Virus record (IMG/VR): IMGVR_UViG_3300034061_004440
Coordinates: 1-20,108 of that record
Source: a virus
Direction: 5' to 3' (one strand)
Length of the DNA stretch: 20,108 nt
Position numbers and translations under genes: made by a program. The first letter of the stretch is position 1. Every line of letters starts with the position of its first letter. The notes below the pieces were generated by a model, which saw nothing but the letters and a program-made list of their open reading frames with translations, did no database searches and was not told the DNA's origin. Below are positions 3,258 to 18,092 of the stretch, in pieces.

Positions 3258-5093
3258 ATGTCGGCCCAAGCAGAAATAGATATCAGGGTAAATACAGAAG
3301 GTGCCCAACAATCCTTAGATAAGTTTCAAGGTGCTATTGATACCTTAGGAGGTTCTGTAGAAGTTGTTTTCGGTTCATTAGCACTGTTTGGTGTTGAAAA
3401 TGAATGGGTTAAGAATTTAGAACAAGGTGCTGTAGGTGCTATTGCGTTAGCTGATGGTGCTAAGCGAATGACCGAAGGTATCATCAAATTTACTGGTGCT
3501 ACTACATTAGCTGAAGCTGCACAAGCTGCTTTTAATGCTGTAGCTAATGCTAACCCCTATGTTTTATTAGCTACTGCTATTTTAGCTGCAGGTACTGCTT
3601 TATTCTTATATAAGAAAAATGCTGAAAAAGCTAAAGAAGCACAAAGGCAATTAAGGGAGGAAATAGGTAAAGCTAATTTTGATACAATTAGAAATATTCA
3701 GCTGTTAAAAGTTGAATTAAAAAATGAACAAAACTTAAGAGAATATCAAGCACGTGTTAGCACTAAATCTGTAAAAGAATTAAATGCTGAAATTGCAGCA
3801 TCTAATAAAGCTATCACTCAACAAACTGCTAATGTTGAAAAACAAATTCCTTTACTACAACAGTTAGATTTACAATTTCAAAAGGAAGCTAATGCTTTAC
3901 AAGCTAGATTTGATGCTGGTCAATTAAGCAATGAACAATATGAAAAGGAAAGTGAAGCATTAGCTAAAAGAACAGACCAAACAAAACAAGATATTGAGTT
4001 ACAGCTTGAAAATGCTAGAATAGCTATTGAACAACAGCAAGCTTACATTGATATAGCAAATGAGGAGATAGATAAAAGAAATGAAGTAGCTGAAACTAAA
4101 TCTGAAAATGCTAAAGCTGATAAGGTACTTAGAGATGCTGAAAAAGCAGCTGAAAAAGAAAAAGCAGCAGATTTAGTTAAAATTCAAAATGAATTAGAGG
4201 ATGAATTATATTTAGCTAGGTTTAAAGGTCAAGAATTAGAAGAACTACAAGCACAACAGTTATTTGATGATAGGGTAGCTAGGGCTAATGGTAATGCTGA
4301 GTTAATAAAACAAGCTGAAGAATTATTATTAGCTGATTTAGCTGAAATTAGACAAAGATATGCTGATGATGAAGAAGCTAAAGCAGTTGAACAAACAACT
4401 AAACAAGCTGAAATTAATGCTGCTACTTTAGAAGCACAAAAAGCATTAGATGCTGAGTTATTAGAATCACAAAAAGCATTAGCAGCAGAAGAAGCAGCTT
4501 TACAAGATGCTAAAATATCTGCTATAAGAAGTACATTTGATATAGCTAGTTCTTTAGCTGGTGATAATGAAAAAGTACAAAAAGCTATATTCTTAGCTTC
4601 TAAATTATCTGAAGCTGCCCAGGTTGCTGTTAGTACTACAGCTACAGTAGCTGGTATAAATGCAGAAACAGATGCTGCTGTTGCAAGTATAGCAGCTAGA
4701 AAAAATGAAACTATAGCTGCAGGATTAGCAGGTGACCCTTCAGCATTTGCTAGAGTACCTGCTTTACAAGCTTTACAATTAACTACTAAAGCAACAGGTG
4801 TAGCTAAATCTAGAATAGCTAAAATTAAAGGGGCAGCTGCAATAGCTGCTATATTAGCATCCTCCATAACTGGTCTTAAAGGTGGAGGTGGTGGAGGTGG
4901 AGGTGAAGGAGGTGGTGGTGGTGATTCGGGTATAGGTACAGGTGCTTTTGCTACATTAAGTTTACCTGGTCAAAACCAAAACCAACCTCCTCAATCACAA
5001 CCATCTCAACCTATCCAAGCATATGTATTAGCTGGTGATGTATCTAGTGGTTTAGAAGCACAACAAAAAATTCAAGAAAGAAGAAGATTATGA
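3258..5093 (+). CDS. Tail tape measure protein
   Basis: This 611-residue protein sets tail length and is threaded through the tail tube. The N-terminus (AEIDIRVNTEGAQQSLDKF) is the usual tape-measure opening. A hydrophobic segment follows at about residues 100-118. A long Ala/Glu/Lys/Gln-rich coiled coil runs from about 120 to 430, and a second hydrophobic, Ala-rich stretch from about 435 to 540. A glycine-rich hinge at about 541-557 precedes a conserved-looking tail, AYVLAGDVSSGLEAQQKIQE, which I associate with tape measures of Bacteroidota phages. It is short for the family, suggesting a tail of roughly 90 nm if the usual length per residue holds. The start follows an A/T-rich leader (aataaataaataaaATG). 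It overlaps the protease gene by ATGA. No chaperone frameshift gene pair is seen beside it. Confidence 0.88.
   Translation: MSAQAEIDIRVNTEGAQQSLDKFQGAIDTLGGSVEVVFGSLALFGVENEWVKNLEQGAVGAIALADGAKRMTEGIIKFTGATTLAEAAQAAFNAVANANPYVLLATAILAAGTALFLYKKNAEKAKEAQRQLREEIGKANFDTIRNIQLLKVELKNEQNLREYQARVSTKSVKELNAEIAASNKAITQQTANVEKQIPLLQQLDLQFQKEANALQARFDAGQLSNEQYEKESEALAKRTDQTKQDIELQLENARIAIEQQQAYIDIANEEIDKRNEVAETKSENAKADKVLRDAEKAAEKEKAADLVKIQNELEDELYLARFKGQELEELQAQQLFDDRVARANGNAELIKQAEELLLADLAEIRQRYADDEEAKAVEQTTKQAEINAATLEAQKALDAELLESQKALAAEEAALQDAKISAIRSTFDIASSLAGDNEKVQKAIFLASKLSEAAQVAVSTTATVAGINAETDAAVASIAARKNETIAAGLAGDPSAFARVPALQALQLTTKATGVAKSRIAKIKGAAAIAAILASSITGLKGGGGGGGGEGGGGGDSGIGTGAFATLSLPGQNQNQPPQSQPSQPIQAYVLAGDVSSGLEAQQKIQERRRL
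4880..4925 (+). repeat. GGN glycine-codon run in the tape measure gene
   Basis: A run of GGT/GGA codons encodes eight glycines, one glutamate and five more glycines, forming a flexible linker before the C-terminal segment of the tape measure. It is a simple-sequence tract, in frame, in an otherwise AT-rich gene. Confidence 0.8.
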
Positions 5094-6586
5094 GTACCCC
5101 ATTAATAATAAAATTAGATTTCGAAGAGGATAAAATAGAAGATGGTGTTTATGCTATCTCTATAGTTGATAGTCCTGCAATAGAAGTAGATTTCTTTACT
5201 TTTAATAAATATGAATTTGCTACTTATTCTGATTATCCTAAAGCTGTATCCGCAGCTGCTGAAAGAGGTATTAGATTAAACGAAGCAGTAAACAATAAAT
5301 GTGCTACACAAGTTGGTAAAGTTAGGGCACAACAGTTAGCCCAGGGTAAACCTGTTAGTGAGGAAACAATTAAGCGAATGTTTGCTTATTTGTCCCGTGC
5401 TAAAGAATATTATAACCCTGATGATACTGAAGCTTGTGGTACAATTTCTTATTTATTATGGGGTGGTGAACCAGCATTAGGTTGGTCTGAAAGAAAATTA
5501 GCACAAATTGAAAGAGAAAGAGAATTAAAAGCAGAAAATGAATTAGTTGATTCATTTGAGTTCTCTAAAAAGAAAAAAACCATCTATCTAATATCTTGTA
5601 GTTCAGATAAATTAGAAAGCAAAGCAGCAGCAAGTGAATTGTACTGTTCTCCTTTATTTAAGAAATCCCTTGAATATGCAAGAAAACAAGTATCAGATGA
5701 CCAAATATTTATTTTATCAGCTAAATATGGTTTAGTACCTTTAAATAAAGTTATAGAACCTTATGATGTTACATTAAAGGATATGCCCAGTGATGAAAGA
5801 AAAATGTGGGCTGAAAAGGTTTATTCTGAATTAGAAAATCAATTCAGTATCAATACTGATGAGTTTGTATTTTTAGCTGGTACTGCTTATACAGAATACT
5901 TAATTCCTAAATTTAAGTACACTCATGATTTCTTAGAAGGTAAGAAAATAGGAGAGAGATTAGAATACCTAAATAAATTCTACATTTGCTTCAACAGTGA
6001 TTATTTAGCTTTCTCTTATTTATTTAATGCTTTAGAACAGTTACCAGAATCAGAAAAAGATAATGTTATTGAACTACTTGATAAAATCTCGCAGAATACC
6101 AATAAGGAGATATTTTGTGATGCAGATGGTGGGTGTGAAGTTAAAATGGAAATTCAAACGGATTTTACAGCAGAATCCGAAAAGCAAATGATAGTTTCAC
6201 CGGTAATGATACCGAACAAAGCTATCCTAAGAAAATCTGTTACAGGTGAAGAATTTTATGTTTATTTTACACCTGATACTATTGAAAAAATGGCCCATAA
6301 CTTTCTAAAAAAGAAAGCAACAGATAACTTCAACATCCAGCATGATACAGGTACTAAATTAAAAGGTATTAGTGTTGTTGAAAGCTGGGTTAAACAAGAT
6401 GATAATGATAAAAGTTCCAAATATGGTTTTAATTTACCTGATGGTACTTGGTTTGTTATGTTGAAAGTTGAAGATACTAATTTATGGAATCTAATTAAAA
6501 CAGGTGCTGTAAAAGGATTATCGTTAGAAGGTTACTTTGGTAAACAAGAAACCTTAAACAAATTTGAAGATTGTGGTTGCGAATAA
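5090..6586 (+). CDS. XkdF-like prohead protease with embedded DUF6884-like domain
   Basis: This 498-residue protein has an unusual build. Residues 1-40 carry the GVYAISIVDSPAIE strand that opens XkdF-type proteases. Residues 46-140 form a separate domain (DYPKAVSAAAERG, then CGTISYLLWGG) that I have met in other phage head proteins. Residues 163-297 match the DUF6884 pattern: an ISCSSDKL start, then ELYCSPLF, FILSAKYGLVPL, IEPYDVTL and a KIGERLEYL close. Residues 365-484 are the protease core, with probable catalytic His418 (NIQHD) and Ser478 (GLSLEGYF). Its job is to cleave scaffold and itself during capsid maturation. It sits directly before scaffold and capsid, overlapping the tape measure by ATGA. 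The protease call is strong; the role of the inserted domains is unknown. Confidence 0.85.
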   Translation: MSTPLIIKLDFEEDKIEDGVYAISIVDSPAIEVDFFTFNKYEFATYSDYPKAVSAAAERGIRLNEAVNNKCATQVGKVRAQQLAQGKPVSEETIKRMFAYLSRAKEYYNPDDTEACGTISYLLWGGEPALGWSERKLAQIERERELKAENELVDSFEFSKKKKTIYLISCSSDKLESKAAASELYCSPLFKKSLEYARKQVSDDQIFILSAKYGLVPLNKVIEPYDVTLKDMPSDERKMWAEKVYSELENQFSINTDEFVFLAGTAYTEYLIPKFKYTHDFLEGKKIGERLEYLNKFYICFNSDYLAFSYLFNALEQLPESEKDNVIELLDKISQNTNKEIFCDADGGCEVKMEIQTDFTAESEKQMIVSPVMIPNKAILRKSVTGEEFYVYFTPDTIEKMAHNFLKKKATDNFNIQHDTGTKLKGISVVESWVKQDDNDKSSKYGFNLPDGTWFVMLKVEDTNLWNLIKTGAVKGLSLEGYFGKQETLNKFEDCGCE

Positions 6587-11380: not shown

Positions 11381-11527
11381 ATGAAAGAACATCATTTAGC
11401 TAATATAATATCAGCTGTAGGTCTAACATTCAGTTTAGCCAATATAAATCAATTATTAACAATGGTATCATTATTAGTAGCCATTGGATTAAATATTCAC
11501 CTTATATATAAAAACTATAAGAAATGA
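11381..11527 (+). CDS. 48-aa membrane protein, possible holin-like
   Basis: The sequence MKEHHLANIISAVGLTF is followed by a strongly hydrophobic stretch (residues 25-43, including LLTMVSLLVAIGLNIHLIY) and a basic tail (KNYKK). One clear and perhaps one weaker membrane segment can be seen. The stop overlaps the next start (ATGA), which supports a real gene. Size, charge and position suggest a holin or holin-accessory protein, but no endolysin is visible nearby, and a second, better holin candidate lies at 17341. Confidence 0.65.
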   Translation: MKEHHLANIISAVGLTFSLANINQLLTMVSLLVAIGLNIHLIYKNYKK

Positions 11528-11865
11528 AGCAAAAAGAACTCTTAAACAGTGTTAGTGGGAAATCAATAGACCAAATAATAGATATGTTTATTGAAAAGGA
11601 TATAGAGATATATGAGGAATATAAAAACCAAATACCATATTCTAAAGCTGATTATCTATCGTTACACTTAATCGATTTAGTTACCAATCAACATAAACTA
11701 GTAAAAAAGCTAATTAAAGCAACTCTACCCTGTAATATAAAAAATGTAGACCAGTTTGCTGCTTATTATAATAAAAGAATAGCTGAGGAAACAAGAAATG
11801 TGATTCAATTAAAACTACCTCAGTTGAAAAAAATAGAGTTACCTAAACTCAAAGCTATATCCTGA
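11524..11865 (+). CDS. Helical protein of unknown function (113 aa)
   Basis: The protein is Lys/Ile/Leu-rich and probably all helical, with a basic C-terminus (IQLKLPQLKKIELPKLKAIS) in which a KLPxLK(K/A)I-type unit occurs twice. It contains one cysteine and no recognisable motif. It is the last plus-strand gene before the convergent hairpin and is coupled to the small membrane gene by ATGA. I do not recognise a family. Confidence 0.65.
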   Translation: MKQKELLNSVSGKSIDQIIDMFIEKDIEIYEEYKNQIPYSKADYLSLHLIDLVTNQHKLVKKLIKATLPCNIKNVDQFAAYYNKRIAEETRNVIQLKLPQLKKIELPKLKAIS

Positions 11866-11886
11866 TTCATTTTGTTCCTATGTTTA

Positions 11887-11930
11887 AGAGTGAGGGGGTG
11901 GACCAAACGTGGTTCACCCCCTTTAACTCT
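11887..11930. terminator. Large hairpin in the convergent gap
   Basis: A 12-bp stem (11894-11905 with 11910-11921, one G-T wobble) has an AACG tetraloop and five GC pairs at its base. An outer 5-bp helix (AGAGT 11887-11891 with ACTCT 11926-11930) extends it. Neither strand has a strong T-run directly after the stem, so it may terminate inefficiently or act as an RNA-stabilising end. It sits between converging transcription units, where a two-way terminator would be expected. Confidence 0.75.
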
Positions 11931-11940
11931 AAAAAATTAA

Positions 11941-11965
11941 TTAAAAAACAAAAACAAAAACAAAA
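11941..11965. repeat. AAAAAC short tandem tract
   Basis: A simple run of aaaaac units directly follows the end of the minus-strand operon. Read on the minus strand it is a T-rich tract just after the stop codon. Confidence 0.7.
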
Positions 11966-11966
11966 G

Positions 11967-12227
11967 TTACTTTAAATGTTTCAACAAGCTTGGTTTATTC
12001 ATAACCTCTGCTAACTGTATTAACGCAGCATTGAAATGGTCCTTTTCTGTTATAAAACCATCTTGATTGAAATGCTTTTTTTGGTATTTTAATGCTGATT
12101 TTTTTGATTGTATATTTGCACATGGTTTGCAATATCTATAATACCCACTTTTACAACTATCACACTTACCAAAGTATTCTGATGTTAATGGATATTCAGT
12201 GTTACATATAGCACATAGCTTGTTCAT
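11967..12227 (-). CDS. Zinc-ribbon protein (86 aa)
   Basis: Six cysteines lie in three CxxC pairs (Cys5/8, Cys22/25, Cys33/36). The layout CAICNTEYPLTSEYF ... RYCKPC resembles the zinc-binding N-terminal module often found before HNH endonuclease domains in phages. No HNH motif follows; the remaining 45 residues are helical and charged. It may bind DNA or a protein partner. It is the last gene of the minus-strand operon. An AT-rich stretch (tatatttat) lies five bases before the start codon. Confidence 0.7.
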   Translation of the reverse strand: MNKLCAICNTEYPLTSEYFGKCDSCKSGYYRYCKPCANIQSKKSALKYQKKHFNQDGFITEKDHFNAALIQLAEVMNKPSLLKHLK

Positions 12228-12251
12228 CCCATATAAATATATGGAGAGATA

Positions 12252-12452
12252 TTAAGAACGCTTTTCTTTGTTCCTTTGTTTAAACTGAATAGCTTGAACA
12301 ATTTCCATCTTACATTCTCTAGATAATCCTTTCCATCTACCCAACAACCATGTTAAATATTGTTCATCAGCAATATGTACTGATAATCCCTTAAATTGTC
12401 CCATGGTGAACTTATTATACTCATCTAAGGGTTGAAAATATACATTTTTCAT
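12252..12452 (-). CDS. DUF3820-like small protein (66 aa)
   Basis: The core MGQFKGLSVHIADEQYLTWL matches the pattern of DUF3820 proteins (compact Gly-x-(F/Y)-(K)-Gly, then Tyr-Leu-x-Trp-Leu), a short fold found alone or at the end of exonucleases. The C-terminus is basic (FKQRNKEKR). It lies 8 bases after the gene before it in the operon. The family call is by pattern only, and its function in phages is not known to me. Confidence 0.6.
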   Translation of the reverse strand: MKNVYFQPLDEYNKFTMGQFKGLSVHIADEQYLTWLLGRWKGLSRECKMEIVQAIQFKQRNKEKRS

Positions 12453-12460
12453 TGTATAAC

Positions 12461-12934
12461 TTATTTTACTATACTGTTAATTAATTCTTTATGATATTCA
12501 TTATTTATAGAATTAAATTTAAGTTCTATATCATCTAAGGCCAAACCTTTTACTTTAGCTGTTTCTATTAGATAATCCATTGTATAATATACAATCATTT
12601 CATCGGTCATAGTATCTCCTATACCAGCAGCTGAATATCTTTTTTCTAAGTGCCTGAATTGGTTAATAGCTGCTTGTAAATCTAAATCAATTAGATGGTT
12701 ATGTTCATATTGATTTTCTACTTGTAATTGATGCCAGTGCAATTTACTGTAAAATGCATCACTAAAAGCATTAATGTTAATAGAGGGATATTGAGTAACC
12801 TTATAAATTAGGTTCTCAATAATCTCAATTATTTTGTTAGTACAATTCACCTGTGCTTTACCGGTGTTAAGGAGTGCAAATGGGTTAGAACCATACTTAG
12901 ATTCTAAAATCCCTGTTATATTTTTAATTTCCAT
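12461..12934 (-). CDS. Unknown helical protein (157 aa)
   Basis: This is a soluble, mostly helical protein with the segments INAFSDAFYSKLHWHQLQ and INQFRHLEKRYSAAGIG, and with several His residues in the middle. I see no known motif. I prefer the start at 12934 (MEIKNITGILESKYG); ATGs at 12940 and 12970 are in frame, but the extra MGPIFVGLIF stretch looks like translated promoter/leader DNA (it contains ttatatttatg). It lies in the middle of the minus-strand operon with short gaps on both sides. Confidence 0.6.
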   Translation of the reverse strand: MEIKNITGILESKYGSNPFALLNTGKAQVNCTNKIIEIIENLIYKVTQYPSININAFSDAFYSKLHWHQLQVENQYEHNHLIDLDLQAAINQFRHLEKRYSAAGIGDTMTDEMIVYYTMDYLIETAKVKGLALDDIELKFNSINNEYHKELINSIVK

Positions 12935-12985
12935 GCCCATAAATATAAGACCAACAAAAATAGGTCCCATATTTATGAGAGAGGT

Positions 12986-13243
12986 TTATTCAGGTGTGGA
13001 CATTTTATGCTTAGAGAAAATATCTAAATTATCCATTTCAAAATCAATCAGTGCATGTTTAACACTATTCTCAATATTTAAATCATAATTGTAGATACCA
13101 TTTTCAGGTTCAAAAATACCCCATTCACTGGACCAGTAGTATACATCTGATTTACCTGTAATGTTATCAATAACTTCAACAGTAACATATTTAACACCTT
13201 TAGTCAACATTTCTGTTAATACACAAATCTCAAACTTGTTCAT
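12986..13243 (-). CDS. Unknown small protein (85 aa)
   Basis: It starts MNKFEICVLTEMLTKGVKYV and continues with beta-like strands (VTVEVIDN, DVYYWSSEWGIFEP) and an acidic helix near the end. The open frame extends upstream to 13300, but that part overlaps the preceding small gene. An A-rich leader (taataaaaaaATG) precedes the ATG at 13243, 10 bases after the previous stop. No family is recognised. Confidence 0.62.
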   Translation of the reverse strand: MNKFEICVLTEMLTKGVKYVTVEVIDNITGKSDVYYWSSEWGIFEPENGIYNYDLNIENSVKHALIDFEMDNLDIFSKHKMSTPE

Positions 13244-13253
13244 TTTTTTATTA

Positions 13254-13406
13254 TTAGGAAATAATTGTAACGTAACCTTCATCATCAAAACCAATTTCAC
13301 AACCTGGCATATAAACAGTTAATTGTCCATCTTCAATAATAAGTTCAAAACCAGCATCAGATAAAATGCTGTAAGCTTTAGCGAATTGAATTTCTTGTTC
13401 TTTCAT
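13254..13406 (-). CDS. 50-aa acidic protein of unknown function
   Basis: This short gene reads MKEQEIQFAKAYSILSDAGF followed by alternating strand-like segments (ELIIEDGQLTVYMPG, then GFDDEGYVTII). It ends in TAA 10 bases before the next minus-strand ATG. The leader aaaaacataacaaaATG is A-rich, like other starts in this window. Composition (many Glu/Asp, helix followed by strands) and tight spacing make it a convincing gene. It is the first intact gene of the minus-strand operon. The function is unknown. Confidence 0.7.
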   Translation of the reverse strand: MKEQEIQFAKAYSILSDAGFELIIEDGQLTVYMPGCEIGFDDEGYVTIIS

Positions 13407-13436
13407 TTTGTTATGTTTTTCTTATTTTTCTTATAC

Positions 13437-13538
13437 CTAAATATAAGTATCCTTTTGCATAAGGCCAAACTTTACACCTTTCTTAAAATAAGCTTGTTTT
13501 TCCAGAATTTCTGAAGTAACTTCAGCATCAATGTTAAT
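13437..13538 (-). pseudogene. Start-less 33-codon frame, possible gene remnant
   Basis: The frame reads INIDAEVTSEILEKQAYFKK and on to GLMQKDTYI before TAG, with codon choice like the phage genes. No ATG, GTG or TTG starts it; the only candidates are ATT at 13538 or ATA. The next minus-strand gene begins 30 bases after its stop, the usual spacing in this operon. It could be a decayed gene, or a gene using a rare AUU start. No family is recognised. Confidence 0.4.
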
Positions 13539-13548
13539 ATTTATTAAC
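13533..13548. promoter_or_regulatory. Palindrome GTTAATA-TT-TATTAAC, possible operator
   Basis: Two perfect 7-bp arms flank a TT centre, placed upstream of the minus-strand operon and over the expected start of the start-less frame. Such a site could bind a dimeric repressor. The AT-only composition means chance cannot be excluded. Confidence 0.35.
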
Positions 13549-13591
13549 TGAGGAATAAGGGATAGAAGGGTAAAAAGGAAAAAAGGAAATG

Positions 13592-13623
13592 AGGTTACAG
13601 AGAAGTTTGGTCTTTGGTAACCT
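13592..13623 (-). terminator. Terminator-like hairpin on the minus strand
   Basis: A 7-bp stem (AGGTTAC 13592-13598 with GTAACCT 13617-13623) is followed on the minus strand by a pyrimidine-rich tract with runs of six and five T. It lies after the broken frame at 13694-13864 and would end its transcript. The stem sequence is the same as the core of the terminator at 17532-17567. Confidence 0.5.
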
Positions 13624-13693
13624 TTATCAGTTTGTTTATATTTATATTAGAACATAGGACCGAGTGACTGGAACAACTCACTTTAAATAGATT

Positions 13694-13864
13694 CTAAACT
13701 TCAGCAATACCAGCTGTTGGTTCTTGTAAATTAAATCCCCTCAGTATTGCAAAATGTACCAGGTTGTTTGAACTAACATAGCATCCATTTTATTCAAGCT
13801 GGGTGGTAAAACTCTCTAATAAAACCTGGTATCGGGGGGATGCGTTGAATGTTTTAGTGCCCAT
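13694..13864 (-). pseudogene. Small gene interrupted by one in-frame stop, possible DNA-binding protein
   Basis: Reading from ATG 13864, 24 codons (MGTKTFNASPRYQVLLESFT...) end at TAA 13792-13790. The same frame then runs on for 31 codons (NGCYVSSNNLVHFAILRGFN... to AGIAEV) to TAG. A single base change (for example AAA to TAA) would explain the break. Restored, the segment looks like a small strand-helix-helix protein of the kind seen in ribbon-helix-helix regulators, but that is a weak impression. The first half uses more C-ending codons than the phage average. The ATG lies 35 bases from the divergent tail fibre start. Confidence 0.4.
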
Positions 13865-13899
13865 TATATTATATCTATTATCATCAATAATTAACTGCT

Positions 13900-16191
13900 A
13901 TGGCCCTTCCAGATTTAACAGGAAATAAGATAAAAGATACCTATCAGAGAGTTGTTCAAACTGGAGATGGTAAAACATTCTATAATGGTACCGGTTCAGC
14001 TATTCCTATAGTTACCAATCCCTATACTGGTTCTTTAGCTATCTCAGGAGGTGTTGTAATAAATGGTACAACATTATCAGGTGGAAATTTAAATGGATTA
14101 AGTGATGTAGTTATAACTAATCCTCAGCTAGGTGATTTATTAGTTAGAGATACTTACAGCACTAACTGGGTTAATTCCCAGACCTTAGATGGTGATTATA
14201 CCTATAATGGTACTAATGTTTTCACTAATGAAACTACTCATAATGGAGGTATTTATACAGCTGGAGATATAAATGCAGGTGCTGATTTAGCTTATAATAT
14301 AGGAGGTGACCCAGCTAGAGATTATTGGTTTGCTACAGCTTCTATTGGTTATATTAGAACATTCCAGGGTGGAATAGAATTTGTAGACCCAACTGGTAAA
14401 ACACCTCAGGCTGTATTAACAGTTAATTCTAATGGTTTTACATTAAATAATGCTGCAGGTGCTAAAACAAATTTATCAGCATCAGGTGGTACCTTTACTA
14501 GTAATGTTTCAGCTAATAGATTTGTAGGCCCATTAACAGGTGCTGTAACAGGTAGTGTTTTAGGTAATTTAACAGGTACAGCTAGTTTAGCTACAACTGC
14601 TTCATTCGCTACCCGTGCTAATGTTGCTACCTCAGCTACCTCATCTACCTCAGCTTCTTTTGCTGTTACAGCTTCTTATGTTCTCAATGCTGTAAGTAGT
14701 TCCTTTGCAACTACAGCATCTTATGCTTTAAATGGAGGTGTTACTCAAATAATAGCAGGTACTAATGTTACAATATCCCCAGCTGGAGGAACAGGTGCTG
14801 TTACAATTAACTCAACAGGTGGAGGAGGAGGAGGTACTACATTCCCATATACTGGTTCTGCTATAATATCAGGTAGCTTAATAGTTACAGGTTCTACAGC
14901 AGTATCAGGAGGTATAAGTACCCAATTTATTGATTTTGATATTAATGCTGCACCTGCTTTTTCTACAGGTAGAGTTAATTGGGTAGATGATACTAAAACA
15001 TTAGCAATTGATACTGAATTAAATGGTTTCCAAATTGAAGTAGGCCATCAAAATGTTATTAGAGTAAGAAACCAAACTGGTACTACTATATCAAGAGGTA
15101 GAGTAGTTTATTTAAGCGGTTCCTCAGGTAACAGACCTCTTATTTATACTTCAAGTTTTGAAATAGACCCAACATCAGCAGGTACTGTAGGTTTAGTAGC
15201 AGCTGATATTAGCACCTCTAACAATGGTTATGTTATATCTAATGGTCTAATAAGAGATATAAACACAACAGCTTATACCGCGGGTGCAGTTTTATATCTA
15301 TCCTCAAGCGGTCAACTTTCAACAACAGCACCTGTAGCCCCCTTACATAGTGTTAGATTAGGTAAAGTTATAACATCTGCAGTATCCGGTATAATCCATG
15401 TAGATGTTGATAACGGTTACGAAATCGGTGAGTTACACGATGTAGTTGATACTTCAACAAATTCTACGTTTGGTGCATTATTAGTTAAATCAGGTAGCGT
15501 TTGGAAAAATGGTTATCAACTAACTGGTTCATATGGTTTAACTGGTAGCTTAAGTGCAACATCATTTACTGGTTCATTATTTGGTACTGCATCTTGGGCT
15601 ACTAATGCTTTAACTGCTTCAAACCTAACACCAGCTATAACTAACAATACAGATAATAGAGTATTAACAGCTACAGGTGCGGGTAGTATTAATGGTGAAG
15701 CCAACCTAACATTTGATGGTTCTTTATTAGATATAATAGGTGATATTCAGTTTAATGAAAATAGAATAAGAACATCAAGTACAACAGTAGGTCAACCTGG
15801 TAAAGGTGCTGATTTAGCTTATGATTGGGGTAACTTTACAACAGCACCTACAGCAGGAAGAATAGTTTATTATGCTAGTGGTTCAGGAGGATTTGGTTGG
15901 AGAGATGCTTTAGCAAGTGCTACAGGTAGCAGTATTGGACCATTAGGTGTAGCTACTAATGCTGCTTCTCAAGATGAAATAATGTTAAGAGGTGCTGTTA
16001 GAGTAAGTGGTTCACTATCTGGATTAGCAGCAGGCCAAGTAGTATATTTAAGTAACACAGTATCAGGTAGTGTAACAGGTACAGCACCATCAACAACTGG
16101 TCACGTAGTTAGAATAATAGGTTATGTTATTAGCCCAACAGACAACACAATATACTTTAACCCTGATTTCTCTTATATAACAAGAACATAA
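13900..16191 (+). CDS. Long tail fibre protein
   Basis: This 763-residue protein begins MALPDLTGNKIKDTYQRVVQ, a typical opening of tail fibres in Bacteroidota phages, probably the part attached to the tail. A Ser/Gly/Thr-rich beta region follows, then a TASFA/TASYA repeat zone (about residues 227-277), a Gly-rich linker (near 308-312) and two or more beta modules. The module near residues 400-505 contains GRVVYLSGSSG and VGLVAADIS. A segment at about 585-615 (NRVLTATGAGSINGEANLTF) is common in fibres of marine phages. The last module (GLAAGQVVYLSNTVSGSV...) resembles the earlier VVYLS module, suggesting duplication. It overlaps the LamG gene by TAATG. Its role is host binding; the receptor is unknown. 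Confidence 0.85.
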   Translation: MALPDLTGNKIKDTYQRVVQTGDGKTFYNGTGSAIPIVTNPYTGSLAISGGVVINGTTLSGGNLNGLSDVVITNPQLGDLLVRDTYSTNWVNSQTLDGDYTYNGTNVFTNETTHNGGIYTAGDINAGADLAYNIGGDPARDYWFATASIGYIRTFQGGIEFVDPTGKTPQAVLTVNSNGFTLNNAAGAKTNLSASGGTFTSNVSANRFVGPLTGAVTGSVLGNLTGTASLATTASFATRANVATSATSSTSASFAVTASYVLNAVSSSFATTASYALNGGVTQIIAGTNVTISPAGGTGAVTINSTGGGGGGTTFPYTGSAIISGSLIVTGSTAVSGGISTQFIDFDINAAPAFSTGRVNWVDDTKTLAIDTELNGFQIEVGHQNVIRVRNQTGTTISRGRVVYLSGSSGNRPLIYTSSFEIDPTSAGTVGLVAADISTSNNGYVISNGLIRDINTTAYTAGAVLYLSSSGQLSTTAPVAPLHSVRLGKVITSAVSGIIHVDVDNGYEIGELHDVVDTSTNSTFGALLVKSGSVWKNGYQLTGSYGLTGSLSATSFTGSLFGTASWATNALTASNLTPAITNNTDNRVLTATGAGSINGEANLTFDGSLLDIIGDIQFNENRIRTSSTTVGQPGKGADLAYDWGNFTTAPTAGRIVYYASGSGGFGWRDALASATGSSIGPLGVATNAASQDEIMLRGAVRVSGSLSGLAAGQVVYLSNTVSGSVTGTAPSTTGHVVRIIGYVISPTDNTIYFNPDFSYITRT
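14578..14730 (+). repeat. TASFA/TASYA repeat zone in the tail fibre
   Basis: Short Ala/Ser/Thr motifs recur: TASLATTASFAT, then SASFAVTASYVL and SSFATTASYAL. Codons are mostly GCT, ACA, AGC and TCA/TCT. Such zones are frequent in Bacteroidota phage fibres and may form trimeric stalks. Confidence 0.75.
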
Positions 16192-17585: not shown

Positions 17586-18092
17586 ATGGCAATACATAAA
17601 CAAATAGAATTAGTTTATCCTGAGTTAATACTCATGATAACAACAATAACAAAAGATAAGGTTATTGCTACTGATTTGGTGCATGATAGTATAGCTGATT
17701 TTTTATCAATGCCCAGCTTAAAACAGAACAAAATAAAAAAAGATGATAGAATAAAAGAATATATCTATCAAATAGCTAAAACGCAATATTTCAGTAGCAC
17801 ATCTAATTTCCATCTAACATACAGAGAAAATCAAGTACTAAAAGTAAAAGATAACTCAGATTTAGAACAGTTAGAGGTAGAGGATACAGATAACCAAAGC
17901 ACAAGTGAATTAAGGTTAATAATGAGTACAATAAATAAACATTGTACTAAATTTGAAAAACAACTAATAGTAGATAGGTTTGTTGAAAATATGACCTATA
18001 AGCAAATGGGTGATAAGCATGATATGCCCACCTACTTAATAACAAACAAAATTAAAACTCTAATAAACAAAATAAAACAAAATGTATTATAA
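17586..18092 (+). CDS. Sigma-70-like (ECF-type) factor
   Basis: This 168-residue protein has two helical domains. Residues about 10-40 (MITTITKDKVIATDLVHDSI) match region 2 of small sigma factors, where DLVxDxxxxxL is typical. Residues about 112-165 match region 4, a helix-turn-helix with the segment MTYKQMGDKHDMPTYLITNK as the DNA-recognition part. Such factors direct RNA polymerase to particular promoters. It is the first gene after a terminator, with an AT-rich tatatttat stretch six bases before the ATG, so it probably has its own promoter. The match is by pattern and rather diverged; a simple helix-turn-helix regulator is the main alternative. Confidence 0.65.
   Translation: MAIHKQIELVYPELILMITTITKDKVIATDLVHDSIADFLSMPSLKQNKIKKDDRIKEYIYQIAKTQYFSSTSNFHLTYRENQVLKVKDNSDLEQLEVEDTDNQSTSELRLIMSTINKHCTKFEKQLIVDRFVENMTYKQMGDKHDMPTYLITNKIKTLINKIKQNVL

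Follow-up and report, generated by a model that had tools for sequence, protein, structure and literature searches.

A proposed divergent unit of a zinc-ribbon gene operon and a candidate pseudoknotted RNA gene in a putative Bacteroidota phage

In an IMG/VR virus record (G000), the interval from the head-connector genes to the tail fibre gene holds what we regard, with fair but not high confidence, as a divergent unit, in which a leftward operon ending in a small zinc-ribbon gene (here A86) stands back to back with a rightward gene for a pseudoknotted RNA. The window, by which we mean the whole stretch of DNA analysed, comprises 20108 bases and encodes recognizable portal, DUF6712, head-maturation protease and holin families. 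In the phages collection, its portal is most similar to those of Nonlabens phages (28–29% identity), with weaker matches to Bacteroides, Methanobacterium and Microcystis phages; this similarity and the family content suggest a tailed phage of Bacteroidota. At the DNA level, the window had no match in the same collection, and no host was found because the sigma family described below has no relative in the genome contig collection. ARAGORN reported no tRNA in the window, and a tRNA gene is present in a relative (L092:1170-1240). The head-maturation protease ORF (window 5090-6586) carries a DUF6884/YaaA-like domain in mid-protein, and the parts flanking this domain match in separate pieces in L004 and L005.

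The initial annotation described a minus-strand operon of small genes within the late region, and this block is real, with five ORFs filling 11967-13406. Minus-frame ORFs of at least 50 codons sum to 1425 bases (over three minus frames, overlaps counted twice), whereas 500 Markov sequences averaged 97 bases and never exceeded 702. Each of the five ORFs has its best phage codon usage score in its own frame of the six, and these scores were reached by fractions of 0.02, 0.007, 0, 0 and 0 of 300 shuffles, with the ATG starts at 13243 (fourth gene) and 12934 (third gene) used for scoring. GC skew changes sign and is negative across the block. The features of the leftward part are the following:

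11887..11930, no strand assigned (.): hairpin, probable two-way terminator between the convergent plus-strand structural genes and the minus-strand block.
11967-12227, minus: A86, gene for an 86-aa zinc-ribbon protein, the lineage-conserved gene of the block.
12252-12452, minus: gene for a 66-aa protein, with a weak ExoX-like C-terminal match and codon usage in its favour.
12461-12970, minus: gene for a 169-aa protein (157 aa from 12934), no family found.
12986-13300, minus: fourth gene, 104 aa with a GTG start, or 12986-13243 and 85 aa with an ATG start.
13254-13406, minus: gene for a 50-aa protein, no family found, top codon score of the five.

For the fourth gene, the in-frame ATG at 13243 is a more plausible start than the GTG and gives a 10-base gap to the next gene. 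The 169-aa gene possibly starts at 12934, where a TATATTTAT element precedes the ATG as it does before A86 (window 12928-12960). The hairpin proposed as the left-hand border was also confirmed (−31.5 kcal/mol, z −5.1, a stability reached by 0 of 200 shuffles); an inverted repeat is visible by eye in the same gap of L004 and L005, and a simple terminator scan of 11400-14000 returned none.

The block had been read as an inserted accessory cassette that would show variable content among relatives. The content does vary: L004 and L005, the nearest distinct relatives (portals 97% and 91% identical), carry one gene here and the window five. That sole opposite-strand gene encodes a zinc-ribbon A86 homologue (40–46% identical), and L007 and L092 have two A86-family genes in tandem on the opposite strand. 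All five distinct viruses whose contigs extend to the site (window, L004, L005, L007 and L092) thus have an opposite-strand A86-family gene there. Contigs L002 and L003 belong to the window's own virus (97–100% identical proteins), that of L006 stops short of the site, and that of L007 stops short of the fibre gene. At 17 of 25 more distant loci, not all of them independent, a long fibre-like ORF lies 16–20 bases after DUF6712, so near that there is no room for an A86-type gene, and the remaining eight are uninformative because the ORF caller gave no long ORF. In addition to the known close viruses, a search with the fibre N-terminus returned loci with seemingly unrelated other genes (12 examined).

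The accessory reading holds for four of the five genes because these occur only in this virus: across 103 loci, the 66-, 169-, 104- and 50-aa genes gave no tblastn match (E 0.01) outside its own copies, and the most plausible view is that they are optional cargo preceding A86. No family was found for the 169-, 85- and 50-aa proteins, the 169-, 66- and 85-aa proteins matched nothing in the phages collection, and the AF2 model of the 169-aa protein is poor and all-helical (pLDDT 46.9). The gene annotated as DUF3820-like, that of the 66-aa protein, has a sub-threshold match to ExoX-like_C (Pfam, E 0.007, 16.2 bits, cut-off 26.5) and none above the cut-off. A broader alternative, that all five genes form an accessory cassette with anti-host or counter-defence functions, draws on the restriction of those four genes to this virus and on a host-type promoter-like site (TTTG-N20-TATATTTA) that precedes the first gene and bears on the suggested early expression; such sites are, however, not clearly enriched in the window. 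We consider this alternative unlikely, as A86 is fixed at the site in all five viruses, the other proteins lack any family above cut-off, and the suggested link to defence was not borne out (none of the 5 block proteins has a PADLOC match at E ≤ 1).

As the fixed occupant of the site, A86 deserves closer description. PHROG searches support its annotation as a zinc ribbon, with matches to that portion of phage HNH/endonuclease VII families (phrog_2255, phrog_1035 and phrog_2633; 5/5 A86-family members scanned), as does a confident AF2 model of a zinc ribbon plus helices (pLDDT 90.9, pTM 0.58). Residues C5, C8, C33 and C36 and the HFNAA motif are invariant in 9/9 aligned homologues, while the L095 copy, which is outside that alignment, has HFNYA. 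The PHROG matches cover residues 2-64 at most; unlike the HNH/endonuclease VII proteins, A86 has only 86 aa and its own C-terminal part with HFNAA, and neither a nuclease active-site domain nor a nuclease family in Pfam was found in it. A fold search in the PDB returned no match at E 0.001 or better, a viral fold library gave two unnamed matches below E 0.001 and, further down, several HNH proteins, and the phages collection contained no match. Among PDB sequences, zinc-finger proteins appeared from E 0.006, weak matches that were taken as chance.

In five relatives (L089, L090, L093, L095 and L102), an A86 homologue (32–49% identical to A86 over the matched part) is followed by a sigma-like gene. 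In L090 and L093, these two genes share a few bases, and a large terminase gene comes next. Sigma70 region 4 matches all four sigma-like proteins scanned (E 0.01), the best score being that of the L095 protein (25.8 bits versus a cut-off of 24.1), the only one above the curated cut-off; the L102 protein matches phrog_1740 (E 2.6e-7). The window’s own sigma-like homologue lies apart from A86, at 17586-18092, and its matches are weaker (a sub-threshold Pfam sigma match at E 0.0066, and phrog_1740 at E 4.3e-6). A match of the sigma-like family to a sorbitol regulator among PDB sequences (E 0.022) was taken as chance.

To the right of the block, where the initial annotation had placed a broken-gene region, the segment is better explained as a gene for a knotted RNA. 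The proposed features are the following:

13646..13860, plus: proposed structured noncoding RNA gene, ~210 nt, ends approximate.
13662..13683, plus: predicted hairpin near the 5' end of the RNA, with its own 5–6 bp stem in each of 5 members.
13756..13765, plus: helix C, 5' arm.
13781..13786, plus: helix B, 5' arm.
13823..13832, plus: helix C, 3' arm.
13838..13843, plus: helix B, 3' arm.

Comparison shows the segment to be homologous across six viruses, which give five non-redundant members (L089 being near-identical to L095). Homologues of window 13640-13899 were first seen upstream of A86 in L089 and L093; L095 was added by a pattern scan, L102 by the sigma search, and L090 makes a sixth, divergent member. 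We built a covariance model (R1) from L095, L089, L093 and L102 without the window, annotating helix C alone; it finds the window core at 13716-13844(+) with 92.1 bits and E 3.3e-19, E-values of this search being rough. Over 35 sources, R1 returned the members, the window and, weakly, L090 (E 0.0036), followed by L007 at E 0.31; L004, L005 and L092 gave no match at E 5 or better, and a scan of 67 additional sources gave nothing but copies of these viruses before L048 at E 0.35. In the five relatives, the RNA, the A86 homologue and the sigma-like gene follow one another in that order, and in the window, four genes separate A86 from the RNA. A blastn search with the L095 RNA found nothing in the phages collection, and a GGGGGG pattern match in L096, an unrelated phage, falls within an ORF and was taken as chance.

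The arms follow one another in the order C5', B5', C3', B3', an interlocking arrangement that defines a pseudoknot, and comparison shows that compensatory changes keep both predicted helices. In helix C (9 pairs), 43 of 45 cells are paired across the five non-redundant members (L089 dropped), six of the nine pairs are seen as two or three different pair types, and controls with one arm slid by 1–3 positions paired only 7–19 of 45. In helix B (6 pairs), 30/30 cells are paired and three of the six pairs vary; the window itself forms 9/9 C pairs and 6/6 B pairs. When the 3' arms were permuted among members, the true total was reached in 0/119 permutations for helix C and 1/119 for helix B, the latter being expected because L093 and L090 share the same arms. 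Some selection is built into these counts because the arms were located by anchor words of our choosing. The 5'-end hairpin is weaker evidence because its arms were picked from folds. A tenth, outer pair of helix C, G-U in 5/6 members, would read C-A on the opposite strand, which favours the plus strand, and a G run before helix B could pair with an upstream UCCC in 5/6 members (seen by eye, without variation). Nested folding energy is no better than that of shuffles in any of the six members (z −0.7 in the window, −0.52 in L089, 1.11 in L095, −0.69 in L102, −0.38 in L090 and −0.25 in L093; −0.09 in a separate fold of the window alone), so the case for an RNA rests on the pseudoknot helices.

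A remnant of a minus-strand protein gene, with the similarity among viruses being old coding similarity, would account for the antisense frame of L089, which is open across the segment for 135 codons, for similar translated pieces in L095, L093, L102 and the window that are split by stops or shifts, and for the differences between L093 and L089, which fall mostly at third positions (6, 5 and 11 substitutions at codon positions 1, 2 and 3). That frame is, however, closed in the other five of the six viruses, and the corresponding counts against L089 for the window (13, 10, 7), L102 (12, 12, 15) and L095 (1, 1, 0) give no third-position excess, so that no steady codon-position bias emerges over the set. 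Translations of the segment matched nothing in Pfam at E 10 or below and nothing in the phages collection by tblastn; their PHROG matches were weak, the best having E 0.012. A decaying gene is also not expected to keep 43/45 and 30/30 long-range pairs by compensation, and we regard this explanation as very unlikely. More generally, the knotted RNA gene that we prefer is a warning that an RNA gene can lie hidden in what looks like a ‘broken gene’ gap of a phage genome.

Promoter-like motifs are found in both parts of the proposed unit:

12233..12261, minus: bipartite promoter-like motif upstream of A86, overlapping the end of the 66-aa gene; held-out score 21.9.
13438..13469, minus: promoter-like TTTG-N20-TATATTTA for the minus-strand block; its position fits, its count is near chance.
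13613..13644, plus: promoter-like TTTG-N20-TATATTTA just upstream of the RNA; count near chance.

The bipartite motif is common to L004 and L005, where TCGATTTTGA or GCGTTTTTGA, 8 bases, and then CATATATTTAT or CATATATGTAT precede A86 and the noncoding segment at the same site and, in L004, the holin gene too. A matrix trained on these 5 sites gave, besides the held-out site in the window, scores of 21.6 each before the noncoding segment in L089 and L090, against a background of 435,984 bases of Markov sequence with 9 matches above 12 and 2 above 15. Nothing above 8 was found in L093 (whose contig is cut off there), L095, L092 and L007, L102 scored 11.4 and 10.5 at other places, and deviating versions can be seen by eye in L095 and L102. 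The window lacks the two-part motif upstream of the RNA segment. Unlike that motif, the single element CATATATTTAT (one mismatch) is not above chance, occurring 4 times in the window versus 3.6 expected. A 19-base form of the L004/L005 motif also occurs in L052 and L054, inside a shared long protein frame (chaperonin-like by eye), and was taken as chance; a 20-base version had no match in the genome contig collection.

The TTTG-N20-TATATTTA copy on the RNA side faces the minus-strand copy before the gene block. Both are of the Bacteroidetes −33/−7 type, with the last base off the consensus, for which PMC6847099 gives TTTG / TANNTTTG. Six sites of this type were found in the window versus 3.4 expected, a count so near to expectation that only position speaks for them. 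Repeats of the AACGTCATAT type, possible operators by eye, lie close to A86 or upstream of the promoter for the RNA at L092:4100-4280, L089:4570-4615 and L090:4580-4615.

Taken as a working scheme, the leftward operon would end in A86 as its fixed occupant, with four extra small genes placed in front of it in this virus, and the rightward part would yield, from its own promoter on the plus strand, a separate small structured RNA of ~210 nt. This RNA may regulate phage late expression, and A86 could be its nucleic-acid-binding partner or that of the phage sigma factor encoded next to A86 in the relatives. The segment is probably a regulatory RNA that works with A86 and the phage sigma factor. 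An RNA tied to a small protein family and a sigma factor in two genome layouts offers a target for studying late-gene timing in uncultured phages.

Structured RNAs of phages are already known. The c4 antisense RNA acts in phage immunity, and the phi29 packaging RNA is a small structured phage RNA. The segment resembles c4 antisense RNA in being apparently structured and phage-borne and differs from it in its setting beside A86 and sigma. In the relatives it precedes A86 and sigma, with the large terminase gene beyond them in L090 and L093, a position that recalls phi29 packaging RNA; it has no Rfam match to either. The c4 antisense RNA (RF01695) appears in the table of PMC2864571, and the STAXI motif described in that paper is mainly a pseudoknot near genes for DNA-handling proteins, repeated two or three times, whereas our segment has one predicted pseudoknot and no Rfam match. 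Rfam 15 gave no match over the segment in the window (E up to 5) or in L004, L005, L089, L090, L092, L093, L099 and L102 (E up to 1). Given this result and the structured phage RNAs already known, we describe the segment as a probable structured phage RNA without an Rfam 15 family and do not call it categorically new. Readings as a group I intron, a hammerhead or an HDV-like element, made by eye from known motifs, were dropped, Rfam having given nothing over the segment. Among the literature matches listed for the RNA and promoters, none was recognized as this RNA, which is not proof that it is unpublished.

L089 and L090 differ in this segment within otherwise nearly identical surroundings. 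Their flanks are 97.4% identical on the left and 95.7–98.6% on the right, L089 4662-4884 has no blastn match in L090 at E 1e-5, and the swapped stretch starts just past the shared promoter motif. Both segments, though swapped, have the helix architecture, and such an exchange between near-identical phages suggests selection on the RNA itself. The exchange would also suit a structure that acts as DNA, its inverted repeats belonging to a site of recombination, packaging or replication, as would the position upstream of A86 and sigma in the relatives, with the large terminase gene following in L090 and L093. We give little credence to such a DNA site, since the G-U at the outer C pair favours RNA, the promoter motifs of L089 and L090 point into the segment, and the interlocking order of the arms is unlike a simple cruciform. 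If the segment is an RNA gene, as we prefer, a further and rather doubtful extension is that the slot is exchangeable and its RNA swapped as a unit, and that this RNA, as a ribonucleoprotein with A86, determines specificity in late expression, in superinfection exclusion or in counter-defence.

The same slot holds a different noncoding segment in L004 (12706-12975) and L005 (12711-12978), which is 85.8% identical between the two, their A86 genes being 76.0% identical. Of 54 predicted pairs in this segment, three have changed on both sides, and it is possibly a second RNA type.
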